In this document: positions 8,205 to 61,027 of the stretch, piece after piece | Layout: each line of letters opens with the position of its first letter | Numbering within the stretch: position 1 is the stretch's first letter | DNA from: Enhydrobacter sp. | GTDB taxonomy: Bacteria; Pseudomonadota; Alphaproteobacteria; Reyranellales; Reyranellaceae | DNA: 64,000 nucleotides | Assembly: GCA_025808875.1 (NCBI GenBank) | Contig: CP075528.1 | Span: 1,054,001 to 1,118,000, forward strand | Direction: 5' to 3' | Program-made: the position numbers and the translations under genes | The notes under the pieces: model-generated | Told to the model about the DNA's origin: nothing | The model's input: the letters and a program-made list of their open reading frames with translations, nothing else | The model's database searches: none

Positions 8205-9107
8205 TCAACCAAGCGGCGGCGGCGCCTGCTCCAGTGACGACACCTCGTTGGTCAGCGTCGTGCGGTGCAGGTCGCGCACCTGCGTATGGTCGTAGCGCCG
8301 GGCGCGATGCATGGTGACGCGATTGTCCCACATCACGATGTCGTGCTGCCGCCAGACATGGGCATAGACGAACCGGCGCTGGGTGGCGTGCTCGTTGAGG
8401 TCGCGCAGGAAGGCGCGCGCCTCGGGCACTGGCCAGCCCTCGATCTCCCCGGCGTGGCTGGCGAGATAGAGCGACAAGCGTCCGGTGCGCGGATGGCGCC
8501 GCACCAGGCGCTGGCGCACCGGCGCCCACTTGATCCGCTCCTCTTCGGTGAAGTCGGTGAAGCCGAGAATGCCGCGCGAGAAGATCTGGCTGTGCCGGCA
8601 GATCAGGTCGTGCACCTCGCGCCTGGTCGCCTCGTCGAGCGCGTCGTAGGCGGCGCGCATGTCGGCGAACTCGGTGTTGCCGCCTTCGCCCGGAATGACC
8701 CGCGCCGACAGGATCGAATACTTGGCCGGCACCGCCTTGAACGAACTGTCGGAATGCCAAAGCTGGTTGCCGAGGCCGAACAGGCGGCGGCGGTCGTCGC
8801 GCGCCACCACCTTGTTGTCCTTGTCGAGGTTGGAGATGTCGTTGACGTCCATGCTGAGCCGGCGCTCGTGGGCGGCGGCGATGTCGCCGGTCGCTGTCTC
8901 GAGCGGGCCGAGGGCGCGGCTGAAGGCGACCTGCTGGTCGTCGTCGATCCTCTGGTCGCGGAACACCAGCACGCCGAATTCGTCCATGCCGCGATGGATG
9001 GCCTCGGCGTCGTCGGGCGAGGGCGGCTTGCGCCAGTCGGCGCCGGACACCTCGCCGGCGAAGAACGGCCGATGGGCCGGGTCGATGGGCTTGATGACGA
9101 TCGGCAT
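8205..9107 (-). CDS. TauD/TfdA family 2-oxoglutarate-dependent dioxygenase
   Basis: 300 residues from the ATG at 9107 (MPIVIKPIDP); the frame is open further upstream, but the family normally begins here. Iron ligands are visible in NQLWHSDSSFK (HxD) and VTMHRARRYD (distal His), and an Arg for 2-oxoglutarate follows in the C-terminal part. It couples 2-oxoglutarate decarboxylation to hydroxylation of a small substrate such as a sulfonate, phenoxyacid or other carboxylate; the substrate is not predictable. It is transcribed away from the arsR-type gene and forms an operon with the RNase Z-like hydrolase. Confidence 0.9.
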   Translation of the reverse strand: MPIVIKPIDPAHRPFFAGEVSGADWRKPPSPDDAEAIHRGMDEFGVLVFRDQRIDDDQQVAFSRALGPLETATGDIAAAHERRLSMDVNDISNLDKDNKVVARDDRRRLFGLGNQLWHSDSSFKAVPAKYSILSARVIPGEGGNTEFADMRAAYDALDEATRREVHDLICRHSQIFSRGILGFTDFTEEERIKWAPVRQRLVRRHPRTGRLSLYLASHAGEIEGWPVPEARAFLRDLNEHATQRRFVYAHVWRQHDIVMWDNRVTMHRARRYDHTQVRDLHRTTLTNEVSSLEQAPPPLG

Positions 9108-11056: not shown

Positions 11057-12688
11057 CTATGCCGTCGGCAGCTTGTAGCCCTCGAACTGCTTGCGCAGCG
11101 CGGTCTTGAGGATCTTGCCGGTGGCGCCGTGCGGGATCTGCTCGATGAATTGCACGTCGTCGGGCATCCACCACTTGGCGACCTTGCCGTCGAGGAACTT
11201 CAGCACGTCGTCCTTGGTGACGCTCGCCTCCGGCCGCTTGACGACGATCAGCAGCGGCCGCTCGTCCCACTTGGGATGCGCCACGCCGATCACGGCGGCC
11301 TCGGCCACGCCGGGACAGCCCATGGCGGCGTTCTCGAGGTCGATCGAGGAGATCCACTCGCCGCCCGACTTGATGACGTCCTTGGAGCGATCGGTGATGA
11401 CGACCGAGCCGTCCGGCTCGATCTTGCAGACGTCGCCGGTCTGGAACCAGTCGTCCTTCAGGAACTGGCTGGTGCCGTCGCCCTTCATGTAGCCCTTCAC
11501 GATCCACGGTCCGCGCACGACGAGGTTGCCCGAGACCTGGCCGTCGTTCGGCAGGTCGTTGCCGGCGTCGTCGATGATCTTCATCTCGCAGCCGAACACC
11601 GGCCGGCCGGCCTTGGCGGTGATGGCGAAGCGCTCCGCGTCGGGCAGCTTCCGTTCGCCGCGGTTGAAGCGCGTCGTCGTGCCGAGCGGGCTCATCTCCG
11701 TCATGCCCCAGCCCTGGACGACTTCGACACCGTGCTCCTTCCAGAAGCGCTCGATCATCGCCAGCGGCACGGCCGAGCCGCCGATCAGCGTGCGCCTGAC
11801 CGACGACATCTTGAGCTTGTTCTGGGCGCAGTACTCGAGCAGCGCCAGCCACACGGTCGGCACGCCGGCGCTCAGGGTGACCTGCTCCTTGTCGAGCAGC
11901 TCGTAGACGCTCGCGCCGTCGAGCTTGAAGCCGGGAAACACCAGCTTGGCGCCGCAGATCGGCGCGGCATAGACGAGGCCCCAGGCATTGGCATGGAACA
12001 TCGGCACCACCGGCAGTACCGTCGTGTCGGGATCCATCGGGATCACCGCGCCGTTCGACGACATCATCGTATGGATCATGGTCGAGCGGTGCGAATAGAG
12101 CACGCCCTTGGGATTGCCGGTCGTGCCCGAGGTGTAGCAGAGCGACGATGCGGTCTTCTCGTCGAACTGGGGCCACACGAGCGTGCCCGGCTTGTCGGCG
12201 ATCAGCTCCTCGTAGCAGAGCAGTTTGGGAATCCTGGAGGACGCCGGCATGTGGGCGCGGTCGGTCATGACCACGACGTGCTTCACGGTCTTGAGCCTGT
12301 CCCACACGCCCTCGACGATCGGCAGCAGGTTGAAGTCGACGAAGATGACCTGGTCCTCGGCGTGGTTGGCGATGTAGGCCACGTGCTCGGGCGCCAGGCG
12401 TGGATTGATGGTGTGCAGCACCGCACCGATGCCGGAAATGCCGAAATAGAGCTCGAAGTGGCGATAGCTGTTCCAGGCGATGGTGCCGACACGGTCGCCG
12501 AGCTTGACCCCCAGGCCCTGCAGCGCCTCGGCGACCTTCTTGGCGCGCGTGGCGGCGTCCCTGTAGCCATAGCGGTGGATCGGCCCTTCGATGGTGCGCG
12601 AGACGATCTCGACGTCGGGATAGGAAGAGGCGGCGAAATCGATGATCTGCGAGATCAGCAGCGGGCGGTCTTGCATCAGGCCGAGCAT
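11057..12688 (-). CDS. AMP-dependent fatty acyl-CoA ligase (long-chain type), copy 1
   Basis: 543 residues, adenylate-forming superfamily. It shows the P-loop-like [20 protein letters not shown] (A3), [11 protein letters not shown] (A5), [14 protein letters not shown] (A7), [17 protein letters not shown] (A8) and a C-terminal Lys in [11 protein letters not shown] (A10). It activates a carboxylate with ATP and loads it on CoA in the cytoplasm. It is the same length as, and clearly paralogous to, the ligase at 16945-18576. It is probably the last gene of the minus-strand run with the amidohydrolase and two oxygenases, although 35 bases separate it from the amidohydrolase. Confidence 0.95.
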
Positions 12689-41439: not shown

Positions 41440-41919
41440 ATGACCGACACATCCGACACCACGCCGCAGCCCGCCGCCCCGCTTTCCGATTGGGAGATGA
41501 AGGCGGTTGCACGAGCCAAGCTCGAGGCCGAGCTTTTCACCCTCAACAAGGCCACGCTGCTCAACGCACTGACGCTCGCTGGCGTCACCCGCGTCGTCGT
41601 CAGCTTCGACGGCTACGGCGATTCCGGCCAGATCGAGAATGTCGAAGCTCAGACCGGCGACGATCCCGTCACCATGCCTGCCGCAGCCATCGAAATCGCC
41701 GAGGCCGTCTGGGACCACGCCGAACCGACGCGTTCGTCCGTCTGCATCGCCGAAGCCGTCGAGCGCCTGGCCTATGACGTTCTCGAAAAGACTCATTGCG
41801 GCTGGGAAAACAACGACGGCGCATACGGCGACATCGTCTTCGATGTCGCGGAGGAGACGATCACGCTCGATTGCAACGAGCGCTACACCGCCTCCGAAAA
41901 CTACACCCACACCTTCTGA
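41440..41919 (+). CDS. Hypothetical protein, DUF6878-like
   Basis: 159 residues. After a 20-residue low-complexity start come DWEMKAVARAKLEAELFTLN, VTRVVVSFDGYGDSGQIENV and CGWENNDGAYGDIVFDVAEE, a pattern I associate with DUF6878, found on alphaproteobacterial ICEs and plasmids. No catalytic motif is visible. A GGAG lies before the ATG. It is followed after 10 bases by the next small gene and preceded directly by a terminator, so these two form their own unit. Confidence 0.75.
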   Translation: MTDTSDTTPQPAAPLSDWEMKAVARAKLEAELFTLNKATLLNALTLAGVTRVVVSFDGYGDSGQIENVEAQTGDDPVTMPAAAIEIAEAVWDHAEPTRSSVCIAEAVERLAYDVLEKTHCGWENNDGAYGDIVFDVAEETITLDCNERYTASENYTHTF

Positions 41920-41929
41920 GGAGGCGGCC

Positions 41930-42358
41930 ATGGGACATTGCTATCACCACGCCCTCTCCTCGGTCAGGAAATGGGGCGGCGTCGCAGAAGACTATCTGCC
42001 GCTGCACCAATGGTTCGACGAGTCGAAGGCGACCACCGCCGATTTCCGGCATCGGGCGCTGCGGCATCACGCCGAAGGCATCTTCATGCTGGAGCGCTTC
42101 TTCGGCTCGACCATCACCATTTCGACGGGCCGCGTCGTGCCCGTCCGGCTCCTTGGCGAGCAGCATGTGGTCGAGGATCTCGGCTTCATCCCAAGCTTCG
42201 CCGACTGGGTGCGCTGCATTCGCCCCCAGCCGTGGATGGGACGCGCCCAGCCGATCCACAAGCAGGTTGATCCCTTCGCCGCGCTTTCGGGTGCGAGCAC
42301 CGACCACGCGCCCAACGCGCCGAGCGGCACAGCCGTCGAGACGCCCCGGCGCTTCTAG
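41930..42358 (+). CDS. Hypothetical protein, DUF6915-like
   Basis: 142 residues from ATG 41930, behind a GAGGAGG that overlaps the previous stop. HCYHHALSSVRKWGGVAEDY and HRALRHHAEGIFMLERFFGS are histidine-rich and resemble DUF6915, a family restricted to mobile elements; the HH...H pattern might bind metal. Function unknown. An intrinsic terminator follows 29 bases after the stop. Confidence 0.75.
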   Translation: MGHCYHHALSSVRKWGGVAEDYLPLHQWFDESKATTADFRHRALRHHAEGIFMLERFFGSTITISTGRVVPVRLLGEQHVVEDLGFIPSFADWVRCIRPQPWMGRAQPIHKQVDPFAALSGASTDHAPNAPSGTAVETPRRF

Positions 42359-50200: not shown

Positions 50201-50514
50201 CCGGAACGGGGATGGGGCGCGGGCAGCGTCGTCGCCATAAGGTCGGCGGCCATCTTTCCCTCGGCGCCGGAGAGGACCACGCCCACGGCCTTCTGAGAGG
50301 GCGATCGGGCTCACAGTCGGGCCGGCCGGGCAATGGCGGCGGCCGACTATTTTCCGGCGCGGCCCAGTGGGCCGCTTTCCATCGCGAAACAAAATAGCCG
50401 GCCTTAGCCATCAAGGCCCTCGCTGCGCTCGGGCTGCCAGTCCGCCCCGCCGGTGAGCCTTCGTCGCCATGAAGGCCGCGATGGGCGCGGCCGATCAAGC
50501 GAAGGAAAACTGCG
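50201..50514 (+). other. Non-coding leader region before DUF2493 gene
   Basis: No gene is seen. The right half holds a family II structured leader (next entry) followed by a stretch similar to the leader of the DUF736 gene at 53393, including CGCTGCGCT and a GCCAT...GGCCGC block. The DUF2493 ATG is preceded by GAAGGA. Confidence 0.6.
50341..50403 (+). ncRNA. Leader element family II, copy A (before DUF2493 gene)
   Basis: GGCCGACTATTTT (50341-50353) pairs with AAAATAGCCGGCC (50391-50403) over 12 of 13 positions. Inside is a perfect 7-bp hairpin GCGGCCC-agt-GGGCCGC (50359-50375), and between hairpin and closing arm the unpaired CGCGAAAC. Copy B at 53215-53268 has the same plan with different stem bases. 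Confidence 0.6.
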
Positions 50515-51444
50515 ATGACCCCCGACCACGACGACGCTTTCGAACCGCACCACAGTTCATCCCCGACCGACCAAGTCCTCCATGAACTCCAGCTCTATGG
50601 CTATCGTCCCTTCCATGACGAGCCCGATGCCAGGCCGCTTCCGGAAGCGAACATCCTCGCCGGCAGCATCTCCGACATCTTCGACGCCCTCGTGGTGGCG
50701 CTTGGTGACACTCGCCTCGAACCCGACCTCGAGGACCTGCTCTGGTCGACGGTGAACGTCTTCCATCGGGCCATCGAACGGATCGAACGTGAACTCGACG
50801 ACAACGAGCTGTCCCAGCAGCGCTCGCAACGGGAGCAGGACGGCAGCGAGGTCAAATCCGTCGAGCTGGAGCGACTGACGGCGGAAGGCCAGACGCTGAT
50901 CGAACGCCGCAACGCCTTCGAGCTGATGCGCGACCAGGCCGCCGACCAGTTCGAGCACCACACCCATTCGGCCTGGCGGCCGCGCAACGGATCGAAGGTC
51001 AACCATCGCAACCTGACCTCGGCGATGATCGATAGCCGCGATTTCCTGGCGGCGAAGAAGCGCGCCGAGAATCAGGTGCTCTTCCCAGCGGGGCCGAAGG
51101 TGGCATTGACTGGCGGGCTCGACTTCAACGATCACCGGCTGGTCTGGGCCAAGCTCGATCAAGTTCACACCAAGCACCCGGACATGGTGCTGCTGCACGG
51201 CGGATCGCCGAGGGGTGCGGAGCTAATCGCCGCCAAATGGGCCGACAACCGCAAGGTGCCGCAGATCGCCTTCAAGCCCGACTGGACGAAGCACGCCAAA
51301 GCCGCACCGTTCAAGCGCAACGACTCGTTGCTGGAGACCCTGCCGATCGGCGTCCTGCACTTCCCGGGCACCGGCATCCAGGACAACCTCGCTGACAAGG
51401 CGAAGAAGCTCGGCATCCCGGTCTGGAAGTTCGGCGGCGCGTGA
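50515..51444 (+). CDS. DUF2493 (SLOG-like) domain protein
   Basis: 309 residues. The N-terminal two thirds are helical (LERLTAEGQTLIERRNAFEL). The C-terminal DUF2493 domain reads VALTGGLDFNDHRLVWAKLD, MVLLHGGSPRGAELIAAKWA and LPIGVLHFPGTGIQDNLADK, a Rossmann-like SLOG fold expected to bind a nucleotide or nucleotide-derived ligand. Such proteins are frequent on ICEs and plasmids; their role is unknown. It has its own long structured leader. Confidence 0.85.
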   Translation: MTPDHDDAFEPHHSSSPTDQVLHELQLYGYRPFHDEPDARPLPEANILAGSISDIFDALVVALGDTRLEPDLEDLLWSTVNVFHRAIERIERELDDNELSQQRSQREQDGSEVKSVELERLTAEGQTLIERRNAFELMRDQAADQFEHHTHSAWRPRNGSKVNHRNLTSAMIDSRDFLAAKKRAENQVLFPAGPKVALTGGLDFNDHRLVWAKLDQVHTKHPDMVLLHGGSPRGAELIAAKWADNRKVPQIAFKPDWTKHAKAAPFKRNDSLLETLPIGVLHFPGTGIQDNLADKAKKLGIPVWKFGGA

Positions 51445-51518
51445 GCGCCGCCTTACCCTTCCCGTGCAATGACGTGAAACCGCAACGGCGGGTCAACGGC
51501 TTTCCGCAAAACCGCCTT

Positions 51519-51728
51519 TCAGTCCGCTTCACCCGTCACCGCGAGCCGGGCCGCACGAGCATAGTGCGCCAACTCCGTGTCGTTCTCGATCAGGCCGTCG
51601 AGCAGCGCCTTCATATCGCTCTGATCGGACGCCGATTGAAACGGTCCCGCCTGTCGCTCGATCGCCAGCACCGCAATCGCGAGCGCCTTCTTCACCAGAT
51701 GCAACTCGCGTCCCGTGAACTCCGTCAT
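51519..51728 (-). CDS. Small hypothetical protein
   Basis: 69 residues from ATG 51728 with GAGG upstream; the frame continues to 51815 without a better start. TEFTGRELHLVKKALAIAVL and MKALLDGLIENDTELAHYAR are amphipathic helices. It lies convergent to the DUF2493 gene. Family not recognised; coding is judged likely from the helical pattern. Confidence 0.55.
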   Translation of the reverse strand: MTEFTGRELHLVKKALAIAVLAIERQAGPFQSASDQSDMKALLDGLIENDTELAHYARAARLAVTGEAD

Positions 51729-52049
51729 GCCGCATGCCTCAACCATCATGTCGACTCGTAAGCGCACCTTAGCCGATCGGTCAGCGCACCGTGAGGATAG
51801 CGAGGTTTCACGCATGGTCGGCGACGGCCTTTGAGTAACGGCTCCTGCCGACGGGCGCCACCCCGCGTCTACCAGCGCTGATCCTTGGTCCGGCCGAGGG
51901 GCCTGACGCCATCAACCCACAAGGGGTCGGCTTACGCTGAAGCGTGCCGCCGCTCCGTCTTTGCCTGCGCGGTGATTGCGGCCCTCGGTCGGACACATCG
52001 GGCGCCTGTCGCGCGGGGATGGCCCCGCCTCAACACAGGAGCCGGATCA

Positions 52050-52217
52050 ATGTCTCAAGCCCTCGCACTCGCAAACGGCTGGAACCTCGCCACCACCCTC
52101 ATGGCCTGCGTCGTCGTCTTTCATGCTGACGCTGGCAACTACGGCGTCATGCTCGCCGCCGAGTATGACGGCGATCCCGGCACCGTCATCCACGAATTCG
52201 ACCCCTTCCAACCATGA
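52050..52217 (+). CDS. Small hypothetical ICE protein (55 residues)
   Basis: Starts at ATG 52050 after CAGGAG. ALALANGWNLATTLMACVVV then FHADAGNYGVMLAAEYDGDP is a compact alpha/beta sequence seen, to my knowledge, in small proteins of related ICEs. A strong terminator follows the stop, which supports a real gene. Function unknown. The 234 bases before it show no gene. Confidence 0.6.
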   Translation: MSQALALANGWNLATTLMACVVVFHADAGNYGVMLAAEYDGDPGTVIHEFDPFQP

Positions 52218-52223
52218 AGGGGC
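52203..52223 (+). other. Hairpin overlapping the stop codon of the 55-residue gene
   Basis: CCCCTTC (52203-52209) and GAAGGGG (52217-52223) form a 7-bp stem around the stop codon, upstream of the terminator. Confidence 0.4.
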
Positions 52224-52251
52224 GAAGTGCCACGCAAGCTGCACCGCAGAA

Positions 52252-52289
52252 CGCCAACGGGAATTCTCCTCCCGCTGGCGTCTGTTTTC
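52252..52289 (+). terminator. Rho-independent terminator
   Basis: ACGCCAACGGGA (52252-52263) pairs with TCCCGCTGGCGT (52271-52282) at 11 of 12 positions, then CTGTTTT. It ends the 55-residue gene. Confidence 0.8.
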
Positions 52290-52365
52290 AGCTATACTTC
52301 TGCTCGCGCCGCGGTGGTGGTGGATGGCGCGACCGTCAAACATTCTCTCACGGGAGACCATCGCC

Positions 52366-52809
52366 ATGATCTTCATTGGTATCATCGCCAGCATCGCCGC
52401 GATCGGCGTTCTCTGCTGCTTGATGTTCTATCTCGCGGTCTATGCGCTGCCCTTGTTCGCTGGCGTCACAGTTGGCGCATGGGCTTACGGCACAGGCGCG
52501 GGATGGCTCGGAGCTATTGCCGTTGGATTTGTCGCGGGCTTGGTCACACTCGGCGTGGGCCAACTCCTGCTCGTGTTCGTGAAACCGCTCTGGCTGAGGC
52601 TCGCGATCGCCATCGCCTTCGTCGCGCCGGCCGCAATCGCCGGCTATCACGCCACCCACGGCATCGTGAAACACACTATGCCGTCCGAGACGTGGCCGAT
52701 CATCTTCTCTGTGATCGGCGCCATCGCAGTCGGCGTCACCGCATTCGTTCGCGTGACGACGTTGGCTGGGACCGCGCCTACGGGACAAGGCGGCATGGCG
52801 CGCGCTTAA
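52366..52809 (+). CDS. Small integral membrane protein
   Basis: 147 residues with five hydrophobic segments: IGIIASIAAIGVLCCLMFYL, LFAGVTVGAWAYGTG, LGAIAVGFVAGLVTLGVGQL, LAIAIAFVAPAAIAGY and WPIIFSVIGAIAVGVTAFV. No family motif is recognised. GGGAG precedes ATG 52366. It is a frequent type of ICE accessory protein, possibly acting in entry exclusion or envelope change, but nothing in the sequence proves this. Confidence 0.75.
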   Translation: MIFIGIIASIAAIGVLCCLMFYLAVYALPLFAGVTVGAWAYGTGAGWLGAIAVGFVAGLVTLGVGQLLLVFVKPLWLRLAIAIAFVAPAAIAGYHATHGIVKHTMPSETWPIIFSVIGAIAVGVTAFVRVTTLAGTAPTGQGGMARA

Positions 52810-53392
52810 GCGGGCTGCACGGCAGGGGCGGCCGAGCAAGGCTTGCATACGCCGTCCTAGTCGTTTGTTGGCGAGACGATGCCATAGAGCGCCTCTCGAC
52901 TAGACGTGAGCAGCCCACATCGAAGCCCGCCGGGAACACAAGCCAATCGGCGAAGCTGCTCCTCAACTCCACAATGGTGGATCCCTGAGACGTCTTTCGT
53001 CTACGCGGCCGGGCGACGATCCCACTTTCGTCCGCCGGACGCCGATACGGAATGTTGCGCTAAACGTGCCGGTCCATTGGGGAAGGCGACGGGTCGAGCC
53101 ACGTTCTCCTCGATACACCTCTGTCTGATCGAGCACTCCAAGCGGCCTCTTCGATGGGCTGATCTGGCCGAAGGCCGGCTGCGCCTCGACCGCCTATGCC
53201 GCAATGGCGCCGATCGACTTTCTTCCCCTGCCGGCTTCGCCGGCATTCCTCGCGAAACAACAAAGTCGCCTGGCTGCCATCCTCCGCTGCGCTTCGGCCT
53301 GCAAGCAGGTGCGGCGCCGATCGCCTCCGGCCAACCGATCGCCATCGAGGCCGCATGGTGCGGGCTCGAAACAGAGATCAAGGAGAACTACC
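52810..53392 (+). other. Long non-coding region before DUF736 gene 1
   Basis: About 580 bases without a convincing gene. The left 380 bases show nothing recognisable. The right 190 bases hold a family II structured leader and continue in parallel with the leader of the DUF2493 gene (CGCTGCGCT, GCCATCGAGGCCGCATGG) up to AAGGAG before the ATG. Confidence 0.6.
53215..53268 (+). ncRNA. Leader element family II, copy B (before DUF736 gene 1)
   Basis: CGACTTTCTT (53215-53224) pairs with AACAAAGTCG (53259-53268) at 9 of 10 positions. Inside is a perfect 7-bp hairpin TGCCGGC-ttc-GCCGGCA (53229-53245), then the unpaired CGCGAAAC before the closing arm. Hairpin size, triloop size and the CGCGAAACAA element match copy A, while most paired bases differ. 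Confidence 0.6.
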
Positions 53393-53716
53393 ATGGCGAC
53401 CATCGGCACCTTCAAGAAGACCGGCAACGAGTTCAGCGGCCAAATCGTCACCCTCAGTGTCCAGGCGAAGAACGTCCGCATCGTTCCCGAGGCCAACCGC
53501 TCCGGCGAGAACGCCCCCAGCCACCGCGTCTTCGTGGGCCGCGTCGAGATCGGCGCCGCCTGGGCCAAGCGCTCCAACGAGGGCCGCGATTATCTGGGCC
53601 TCAAGCTCGACGACCCGAGCTTTACCGCCCCGATCTACGCCAACCTCTTCGACGACGAGGACGGCGAGGGCTACAGCCTGATTTGGTCTCGTCCCAACGG
53701 CCGCCGCGCCGACTAA
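53393..53716 (+). CDS. DUF736 protein, copy 1
   Basis: 107 residues. ATIGTFKKTGNEFSGQIVTL, APSHRVFVGRVEIGAAWAKR and YLGLKLDDPSFTAPIYANLF are the DUF736 signature. Every member of this small family I know is on mobile elements or next to conjugation genes; the fold suggests an OB-like beta barrel that might bind nucleic acid. A second, diverged copy lies at 57943. AAGGAG precedes the start. Confidence 0.9.
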   Translation: MATIGTFKKTGNEFSGQIVTLSVQAKNVRIVPEANRSGENAPSHRVFVGRVEIGAAWAKRSNEGRDYLGLKLDDPSFTAPIYANLFDDEDGEGYSLIWSRPNGRRAD

Positions 53717-57942: not shown

Positions 57943-58278
57943 ATGCCGCAGATCGGCGAATTCACCCGCACGAAGAACGGCTACGCCGGCCACATCCGCA
58001 CGCTCTCGCTCGACGCCGAAATCGTGCTCGTCCCCGCCGAGCACACCGACGCTGAGAACGCGCCGGACTACCGTGTTCACCACGGCAGCGATGACGGCCC
58101 CGAGATCGGCGCCGGATGGAAACGCACCGGTGAGAAAGCCGGCGACTACGTCTCCCTGCAGATCGACGATCCCACCTTGGCCCAGCCAATCCGCGCCAAT
58201 CTGTTCCAATCGGCCGAAGACAAATCCGCCTGGAATCTGCACTGGAACCGCCCGCCCAAGCGCGGCGAGCGGGACTGA
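57943..58278 (+). CDS. DUF736 protein, copy 2
   Basis: 111 residues. PQIGEFTRTKNGYAGHIRTL, YRVHHGSDDGPEIGAGWKRT and YVSLQIDDPTLAQPIRANLF align with copy 1 at 53393 along the whole length. AAGGAG precedes the start. It lies between the pilin peptidase and lytic transglycosylase genes, the standard place in this ICE class. Confidence 0.92.
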   Translation: MPQIGEFTRTKNGYAGHIRTLSLDAEIVLVPAEHTDAENAPDYRVHHGSDDGPEIGAGWKRTGEKAGDYVSLQIDDPTLAQPIRANLFQSAEDKSAWNLHWNRPPKRGERD

Positions 58279-59110: not shown

Positions 59111-59172
59111 GGACAACACAACCGCACGATGGCAGGATAAAGGGGCGCGATGTGCGCCTCGGTTCGGTTGTG
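59111..59172 (-). other. oriT: Candidate origin of transfer (oriT) with MOBP-type nic sequence
   Basis: In the 244-base gap before the relaxase gene, the minus strand reads TTTATCCTG then CCATCG at 59141-59127, matching the YATCCTG/Y nic consensus of RP4-type relaxases; the nick would be between 59133 and 59132. Just 5' of it on that strand is an inverted repeat GGCGC/GCGCC (59144-59148, 59154-59158). An outer pair CACAACCG (59117-59124) and CGGTTGTG (59165-59172) frames the whole. Confidence 0.6.
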
Positions 59173-59287
59173 CTTTTTCAATGGCTTACGCTGCGAATTC
59201 GCGAGGTGCGCCTGTTCGGCGCAGCCTGCGGCTCCGGCGATTTCATAAGCAAATCAGCGCTATCGCGCGATGTGCGGTCTTGCCGCC

Positions 59288-61027
59288 ATGAGCGACGACA
59301 ACGATTTCCGCGTCCGGCCAGGCCGCATCCGATCGACCAGCGCGCAGCGCGCGAGGCCGTTCATCGCCCAAGCCTTGGCCGCCGCCCAGCGCGCCGGCGG
59401 CTCGGTCTCCCGCAAGGGGACGATCGGCCCGAACCACCGCTCCCGGTTCGGCCGGGGCCAGCGCGCATCAGTGCAGGCCAATCGGTTCATCACGTCCCGC
59501 TCGCGCGGCGCCGTCGTCAAGGCGCGTGTCGTCCGTCACGGCGGACGGAGCGCGCCGCTCGCGACCCACCTGAACTATCTGGGCCGCGAGGGCGTCACCC
59601 GGGACGGAGAGAAGGCCCGGCTGTTCGGGCCTGGCGCCGATGACGCTGATCCGAAGGCGTTCGCGGAACGGTGCGAGGATGACCGGCATCATTTCCGGTT
59701 CATCGTCTCGCCGGACGACGCCGTGGAGATGTCAGACCTCAAGACCTTCGCCCGCGATTTGGTCGGCCAGATGGAGAAGGACCTCGGCACCAAGCTCGAA
59801 TGGGTCGCCGTCGATCACTGGAATACCGAACATCCGCACGTCCATTTAATTGTGCGTGGCGTGCGCGAGGATGGCGAAAACCTCGTCATCTCCCGCGACT
59901 ATATCAAGGAAGGCATGCGTGATCGGGCGCGGGATCTGATCACGCAGGAATTGGGGCCGCGCACGGATCACGAGATCCGTCGCACCCTGGAACGTCAGAT
60001 CGACACCGAGCGCTGGACCAACCTCGATCGGCAGCTCGCACGCGACGGCTATCGCACCGGCGTCATCGACCTCGCGCCACATCCCAACCGCCAGCCCGAC
60101 GAATTTCATGCGCTCAAGGTCGGGCGCCTTCGCAAACTGGAATCGCTCGGGCTTGCCGACCAGGTCGGCCCCGGCCAGTGGACTGTTTCCGAAAATGCCG
60201 AGACGACGCTGCGCGAGCTCGGCGAACGCGGCGACATCATCAAGCGCATCCATCGCGGCCTTTCAGAACACAGCATCGAACGCGGCGCGTCCAACTATGT
60301 GCTCGCCGGGGAAAGTCTGGACGATCCTGTGGTCGGCCGGCTGGTCGCCCGCGGTCTCGACGATGAGCTGAAGGGTACAGCCTATGCCGTGGTCGACGGC
60401 ATGGACGGCCGCACCCATCACATCAAGCTGCCCGATCTCGACGCCGCCGGCGATAGCGCGCCCGGCTCAATCGTCGAGCTGCGCAGGTTCGACGACGCGA
60501 AGGGGCAGCGTCGCGTCGCGATGGCGGTCCGATCAGACCTCACCATCGAGCAGCAGATCACCGCGACCGGCGCCACTTGGCTTGATCGACAGGCGATCGC
60601 CCGCGAGCCGGTTGCGCTCGGTGGCGGGGGCTTCGGCGCGGAGGTGCGCGACGCCCTGGACCGGCGCGCCGAACACCTGATTGGGCGAGGTCTGGCCGAA
60701 CGTCAGAACCGCGGCGTCAGCTTCAGCCGCAACCTGATCGAGACGCTCCGCCGGCGCGAGTTGGACGCCGTGGGCGCCAAGATCGCGGCAGAGAGCGGCC
60801 GCCCATTCAATAAGGCCGCGGCGGGGGAATACGTCGCTGGCGCCTACCAGCGGCGCATCGCGCTCGCCTCCGGCCGCTTCGCGATGATCGATGACGGCCT
60901 CGGCTTCCAGCTCGTGCCCTGGTCGCCCTCACTCGAAAAGAAACTCGGCCGGCATGTCTCCGGTCTCGCGCGCAGCGATGGCGGCATCGACTGGAGCTTC
61001 GGCCGCAAGCGGAGGCTGGGCCTGTGA
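59288..61027 (+). CDS. rlxS: Relaxase RlxS (DUF3363/VirD2-like)
   Basis: 579 residues from ATG 59288; an ATG at 59270 adds six residues and is possible. Near residue 95, ATHLNYLGREGVTRDG holds the candidate catalytic Tyr. EWVAVDHWNTEHPHVHLIVR near 183 is the three-His metal motif (H-x-H). The DUF3363 domain follows from about 250 to the C-terminus. It nicks oriT and pilots the T-strand. The candidate oriT is immediately upstream, as in the related symbiosis-island ICE. Confidence 0.93.
   Translation: MSDDNDFRVRPGRIRSTSAQRARPFIAQALAAAQRAGGSVSRKGTIGPNHRSRFGRGQRASVQANRFITSRSRGAVVKARVVRHGGRSAPLATHLNYLGREGVTRDGEKARLFGPGADDADPKAFAERCEDDRHHFRFIVSPDDAVEMSDLKTFARDLVGQMEKDLGTKLEWVAVDHWNTEHPHVHLIVRGVREDGENLVISRDYIKEGMRDRARDLITQELGPRTDHEIRRTLERQIDTERWTNLDRQLARDGYRTGVIDLAPHPNRQPDEFHALKVGRLRKLESLGLADQVGPGQWTVSENAETTLRELGERGDIIKRIHRGLSEHSIERGASNYVLAGESLDDPVVGRLVARGLDDELKGTAYAVVDGMDGRTHHIKLPDLDAAGDSAPGSIVELRRFDDAKGQRRVAMAVRSDLTIEQQITATGATWLDRQAIAREPVALGGGGFGAEVRDALDRRAEHLIGRGLAERQNRGVSFSRNLIETLRRRELDAVGAKIAAESGRPFNKAAAGEYVAGAYQRRIALASGRFAMIDDGLGFQLVPWSPSLEKKLGRHVSGLARSDGGIDWSFGRKRRLGL

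Follow-up and report, generated by a model that had tools for sequence, protein, structure and literature searches.

Single-strand origins (sso, ssiA/B), which prime second-strand synthesis, are strand-specific hairpins on transferred or replicating single strands. The Frpo promoters of the F plasmid and the ssi promoters of ColIb-P9 combine a hairpin on the transferred strand (T-strand), a location in the leading region, early-type genes and several copies, according to the accessible parts of PMC9849209 and PMC11541004. Within the accessible literature, the only single-stranded DNA (ssDNA) promoters found described were Frpo/ssi and the candidates for such elements given in PMC11541004. In a 64,000-nucleotide stretch of Enhydrobacter sp. 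(the window; assembly GCA_025808875.1, contig CP075528.1, positions 1,054,001 to 1,118,000), a DUF2493 gene and a DUF736 gene each follow a structured leader. On balance, and by analogy with Frpo/ssi, these leaders are slightly favored to act as hairpins of the T-strand and to drive (or prime) early expression from ssDNA in the recipient.

Like Frpo/ssi, the leaders occur as several homologous copies per element, in what is predicted to be the leading region. Frpo/ssi precede ssb and anti-restriction genes, and the leaders precede genes for SSB-like and ArdC proteins. The likeness extends to a long imperfect T-strand hairpin, to the T-strand as probable template, and to the same folding and mismatch signature. 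The leaders differ from Frpo/ssi in having no detected sequence relation to them, no -35/-10 boxes and a conserved internal loop of their own; they accompany RlxS-type and TraA-type relaxases, mostly in Alphaproteobacteria, and their function is a presumed one. By analogy, they are best regarded as a new family functioning like Frpo/ssi, not as members of it. From sso and ssiA/B they differ in standing ahead of the start codons of individual genes. With riboswitches and other structured mRNA leaders (Rfam) they share covarying stems, a conserved loop and a position 5' of genes; unlike these, they gave no Rfam match, at the gathering threshold or at E values up to 5, and their strand signature in the energy test was opposite to that of cobalamin riboswitches. 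No description of such elements in Alphaproteobacteria was found in the accessible text of the open-access literature searched. The chances are evenly balanced that the leaders constitute a hitherto undescribed and widespread kind of ssDNA promoter with no sequence kinship to Frpo/ssi, lacking -35/-10 boxes and recognized instead through the loop (TTCC...TCGCGARRCAA). Such promoters would turn on leading-region genes of alphaproteobacterial integrative and conjugative elements (ICEs) and plasmids before the incoming strand becomes double.

A Family of Structured Leaders

When one genome of each species was scanned with the DUF2493 protein, at least 80 loci were found, mostly labelled Alphaproteobacteria or genera thereof. 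Across these loci the DUF2493 and DUF736 leaders were alignable along their entire length. The core consisted of a stem P1 (~5 bp), a stem P2 (7 bp + 4-6), an internal loop whose left side reads TTCC and whose right side reads TCGCGARRCAA (plus strand), and an apical hairpin P3 that was free in both length and sequence. Among 50 leaders, both-sided changes were seen at 12 of the 16 P1/P2 pairs, and 88.6% of 782 pairing cells were paired, versus 76.8% after column shuffling and 30-55% for slid controls. Three of the 782 cells were G.U, and many were A.C.

The two window structures are real and are members of one family. A sequence-only reading of the window had placed them at 50341-50403 and 53215-53268, and the stems, inner hairpins and loops that it described were confirmed. 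It had also proposed that DUF2493 and DUF736 genes share a structured leader family, which was right, the family being conserved in homologous elements. A covariance check in related elements, for which that reading had named a lack of conserved structure as the refuting outcome, found the structure conserved.

In the DUF2493 copy, the outer stem joined 50341-50353 to 50391-50403 (12 of 13 positions paired, the odd one an A.C), and the inner hairpin GCGGCCC/GGGCCGC joined 50359-50365 to 50369-50375 around a loop of three bases. In the DUF736 copy, the outer stem joined 53215-53224 to 53259-53268 (9 of 10 paired, the odd one a C.C), and the 7-bp inner hairpin joined 53229-53235 to 53239-53245, also with a three-base loop. 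Both copies carried the extra stem P1, ATGGC/GCCAT, at 50333-50337/50407-50411 (DUF2493) and 53204-53208/53276-53280 (DUF736). The conserved loop stretch CGCGAAAC, in the form CGCGAAACAA, had exactly two occurrences within the window. Mean column identity between the two leaders was 77% in a MAFFT alignment.

A covariance model, R1, was built from the 50 leaders. On the plus strand of the window R1 found just the two copies (Table 1), with the next match at 15.1 bits; a minus-strand match of 26.7 bits was the mirror of the first copy. Seven copies at three places were found across the same genome. R1 copies were present in 23 of the 289 genomes searched for the class and in 23 of the 76 for the order. 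For the phylum the figure was 39 of 398, and four of those 39 genomes lay outside the class Alphaproteobacteria. A copy was present in 79 of 79 loci (L002-L080), a result that is partly circular because these loci trained the model. Four leaders could not be anchored by sequence pattern, and R1 recovered three of them (L069, L027, and L025). Weak matches in L134, L135, and L136 lay inside genes and look like chance. A few matches, namely L050, L201:12890, L226:7623, and L229, had no clear downstream gene by the open reading frame (ORF) rule. Cluster counts included some false matches and were set aside.

Table 1. Coordinates of the leaders, genes and transfer features in the window, and of leaders with an apical insert at other loci.
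Feature	Position	Strand	Evidence
Core preceding DUF2493 (P1, P2, internal loop, P3)	50330..50416	+	covariance model R1, 83.7 bits; pair counts
P2 stem and apical hairpin P3, TCGCGAAAC in internal loop (DUF2493 leader)	50341..50403	+	sequence, alignments
Core element before DUF736	53201..53285	+	covariance model R1, 81.4 bits
Giant imperfect hairpin preceding DUF2493, its upstream flank paired to the stretch through the Shine-Dalgarno region	~50255..50508	-	fold of both strands, flank coevolution
Giant imperfect hairpin before DUF736	~53129..53369	-	fold of both strands (L082, the own-genome copy)
DUF2493 gene (Pfam YAcAr, SLOG family)	50515..51444	+	
DUF736 gene	53393..53716	+	
Putative oriT, CTTTATCCTG followed by CC, nick between 59133 and 59132	59131..59158	-	sequence motif
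Relaxase, RlxS-like (MobA/VirD2 nuclease domain and DUF3363)	59270..61027	+	NCBIfam RlxS model 590.6, under cut-off 850
Leaders with palindromic insert	L029:3075-3198, L030:3773-3896, L054:429-550, L069:1255-1377		
Leaders with palindromic insert, continued	L046:11050-11166, L062:11278-11394, L209:7328-7450		

Giant Hairpins

When the sequence between a point 75 nt upstream of the core and the start codon was folded, a single long imperfect hairpin of ~240-255 nt resulted, with the core on top. This giant hairpin was found in the leaders of every gene type, those of the window included. The structured leader of the sequence-only reading stands, while its extent, given as about 170 nt with a local hairpin, does not, the structure starting ~75 nt further upstream than stated there. 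For whole-leader folding and for the strand tests, 126 of 235 leaders were used as representatives. At least 20 pairs bridged over the core in 114 of the 126 plus folds and in 119 of the 126 minus folds. The median number of bridging pairs was 51.5 for native leaders, 27 for same-family chimeras, 16 for cross-family chimeras, and 10.5 for random windows of the same locus, and in 107 of 126 leaders the native count was above the average for chimeras of that leader. Because native flanks bridged better than chimeras and random windows, the flanks coevolve. This bridging-pair test replaced a longest-run search for a long-range stem, which was dropped after its other-leader control proved nearly as good (shared stem, GC-rich).

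The Shine-Dalgarno (SD) region was paired in the plus fold of 38 representatives, comprising 21 of 53 DUF2493 and 9 of 62 DUF736 leaders among others. Speculatively, such pairing might silence transcripts that read through from double-stranded DNA. A hairpin near the start codon, GGCCGCG/CGCGGYC, was considered as the RNA half of the leader, with a transcript start between the halves; this idea is not claimed, because within the giant hairpin these bases are paired to the upstream flank as well.

Strand of Pairing

In the P2 pairs adjoining the 7-bp core, swaps between A-T and G-C passed through A.C, not G.T. Trees built from the genes behind the leaders (122 and 101 tips; distinct leaders alone counted) gave 19 and 34 changes into A.C/C.A at P2 pairs 1-10, versus 1 and 5 into G.T/T.G. 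An A.C on the plus strand is a G.T on the minus strand, and base-pair evolution therefore points to the minus strand. Whole leaders folded without G.U contained 244 A.C and 53 G.T interior mismatches (519 and 262 in shuffles), with 61 A.C versus 6 G.T in the core.

Alifold energies of the core were -20.2 (plus) and -30.0 (minus) for DUF2493, and -2.2 (plus) and -17.3 (minus) for DUF736. The minus strand had the lower folding energy in 122 of the 126 representatives. Its mean advantage was 13.9 kcal/mol, of which 9.9 was explained by shuffles and 4.0 was left. The test statistics (Wilcoxon p 3e-10 for the energy; Fisher p versus shuffles 2e-7 for mismatches in whole leaders and 8e-6 in the core) overstate certainty, since the leaders are related. 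Pairing on the transcript strand with G.U tolerated, as for a structured mRNA leader, was not found. Selection appears to act on the minus strand (the template, or T-strand) in its single-stranded form, and the RNA leader of the sequence-only reading is unsupported by the strand test. An RNA switch had been the leading reading and was dropped after the count of G.U and A.C cells and the tree and energy tests.

As a positive control, Frpo/ssi-type regions were used: F Frpo2 and Frpo1, one similar ColIb-P9 region, and five more plasmid copies, with two further copies excluded. The T-strand folded better in all eight, and the mismatches were 37 A.C and 7 G.T. As an RNA control, 30 cobalamin riboswitches of the class were used; the wrong strand folded better in just 10, and the energy shift ran in the reverse direction (+3.0, p 0.004). 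Riboswitch mismatches (23 A.C, 15 G.T) did not visibly depart from shuffles (92 and 52). The energy test thus separates ssDNA promoters from riboswitches and the mismatch test does so less well, so that the energy and tree tests carry most of the case for the strand direction.

Transfer Direction

The element in the window carries an RlxS-type MOBP gene set (RlxS, TraG, TraF, SLT, and DUF736), as described in the accessible text of PMC8627217. Upstream of the RlxS gene the minus strand reads CTTTATCCTGCC, and an inverted repeat, GGCGC/GCGCC (59144-59158), adjoins the putative nick site. Both fit the MOBP nick consensus, (C/T)ATCCTG(C/T) with an inverted repeat alongside, as given in the available portion of PMC3772185. 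Upstream regions of rlxS were compared in six of 12 loci examined, and GATAAA(A/G)G stood at the putative nick place in all six, the window's own included. These letters complement a CTTTTATC-like nick; ATCCTG, its core, was exact in two of the six and varied in four. From this motif the minus strand is predicted to be the transferred strand, its 5' end leading towards lower coordinates, so that the genes behind the leaders would fall in the leading region and have the T-strand for a template. As judged from the nick motif and gene geometry, the leaders probably share this position with Frpo/ssi.

In stretches with a leader and RlxS, 26 of 27 leaders lay upstream of RlxS in the same direction. 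The exception was one of two identical inverted copies in L201, where leader and DUF736 are duplicated at 8419-8496 and 12001-12078 and one copy opposes the transfer direction. Loci with a TraA-type relaxase (MobA_MobL) had the same leader geometry in three of three; an RSF1010-like nick motif was not found in these three loci, for which gene geometry alone is reported. Pfam TrwC was found in 0 of 12 genomes.

Genes Downstream of the Leaders

Downstream genes were identified by BLAST to the window proteins and by Pfam. Most leaders preceded DUF736; others preceded DUF2493, and two preceded ArdC genes (L119:6108 and L131:3143). An SSB-like protein was encoded behind the leader of L202 (Pfam SSB, E 2.5e-4, 21.5 bits, under the cut-off of 26), and a diverged DUF736 behind that of L120. 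Seven leaders preceded small ORFs; six of these were scanned and matched no family, and the seventh (L210:7141), behind a weak copy, was unscanned. From the end of the core to the start codon the distance was roughly constant, with medians of 113 and 109 nt. Two ORFs right behind intact leaders, L029:6424 and L226:9117, are presumably transposase-like, as if leaders were preferred insertion sites.

The accessible text of PMC7213743 describes the ArdC protein of R388 as a single-stranded DNA binder that is required in the recipient; genes for ArdC and SSB-like proteins are known kinds of leading-region or establishment gene (PMC7213743). DUF736 was reported on all compared Mesorhizobium ICEs and related plasmids in the part of PMC8627217 available. 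A structure search with the DUF736 AlphaFold model (mean pLDDT 83, all-beta) gave no confident match (best E 0.34), and therefore no function was taken from structure. A second DUF736 gene of the window, at 57943-58278 and closer to the putative oriT, had no such leader in the R1 scan.

Proposed Mechanism and Alternative Explanations

The family, its structure and covariation, its strand preference, gene neighborhood and orientation are supported by the analysis. In the mechanism proposed, RlxS would nick the minus strand near 59132 during conjugation, and this strand would enter the recipient 5' end first, bringing in first the DUF736 region, ~5.8 kb from the nick, and next the DUF2493 region, at ~8.7 kb. 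Each leader, still single-stranded, would fold into its ~240-255 nt hairpin topped by the conserved internal loop. Host RNA polymerase or primase may recognize the duplex stem, and RNA synthesis would start within the hairpin and run into the gene. With no -35/-10 pair beyond chance, a start by RNA polymerase would need another feature, most likely the internal loop, or else primase would be involved. Leading-region genes would presumably be made at once: DUF736 and DUF2493 here, and ArdC and the SSB-like protein elsewhere. Second-strand synthesis would then remove the hairpin and stop expression.

Several observations count against this mechanism. The best sigma-70 -35/-10 pairs in the leaders scored as shuffles did (mean 7.11 versus 7.16; the hexamers were those of sigma-70 and not host-specific), and R1 found nothing credible in stretches of F and ColIb-P9 (best 12.9 bits, E 0.33). 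P2 pairs 11-13 of DUF2493 had no A.C excess (7 versus 9), the terminal hairpin GGCCGCG/CGCGGYC folded better on the plus strand, and the mismatch test has an A.C baseline of ~2:1 in shuffles; the relatedness of the leaders, noted above, adds to these. Folded singly, the window leaders barely beat shuffles (z -1.19 and -1.43), and a single-sequence folding scan of 36000-60000 failed to single them out. One leader sequence by itself would not convince; the comparison does.

The same terminal hairpin, the near-fixed distance to start codons and the SD regions paired in the plus fold would suit a regulatory mRNA leader on the plus strand, whether an RNA switch or a protein-binding leader hiding the SD region. 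This is unlikely, as core intermediates are A.C rather than G.U and the minus strand folds better, the opposite of cobalamin riboswitches under the same test. The strand and position evidence applies equally to a T-strand hairpin that serves solely as a second-strand priming site (ssi/sso-like) and not as a gene promoter, and the founding paper on Frpo, by its title, describes it as serving transcription and primer synthesis. A copy before each of several genes, at a near-constant start-codon distance, exceeds what priming needs, and this explanation is rather doubtful.

An antisense RNA from the minus strand across the leader would yield the same signature in tree counts, mismatches and energy. 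It is improbable: no promoter-like site was found in either window leader on either strand, the lone terminator-like stem (50418-50400, minus) sits inside the core of the DUF2493 leader with none at the DUF736 leader, and a 250-nt antisense RNA would be needed before every gene. Inverted repeats and an apical loop that tolerates palindromic inserts could also describe a passive palindromic repeat, or a double-stranded cruciform or operator. Extrusion or protein binding in double-stranded DNA predicts no strand asymmetry, and the placement before few gene types is strict; this explanation is very improbable.

If the leaders do act as ssDNA promoters on the T-strand, the covariance model and the strand-of-pairing test would provide a searchable signature with no reliance on promoter boxes, and the strand test may also aid the search for them in other phyla. 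Symbiosis islands and many plasmids of Alphaproteobacteria would be predicted to have an early-gene set made up of DUF736, DUF2493, ArdC, SSB-like, and small unknown genes. There would also be an unusual recognition loop to study.

Additional Observations

The same genome contains two further elements of this kind. In one of them, L117 (G000:C1:549969-550050 and 555501-555582), identical cores 5.5 kb apart each precede a DUF736 gene. Within the window, 52081-52380 and 41761-42060 folded unusually strongly on both strands and were unrelated to R1. Several leaders carried a palindromic insert of ~40 nt, of the CCACCCCACGCG...CGCGTGGGG type, in the apical loop (Table 1). P2 and the internal loop were intact in these leaders, and the insert reads as a mobile hairpin landing in hairpins.

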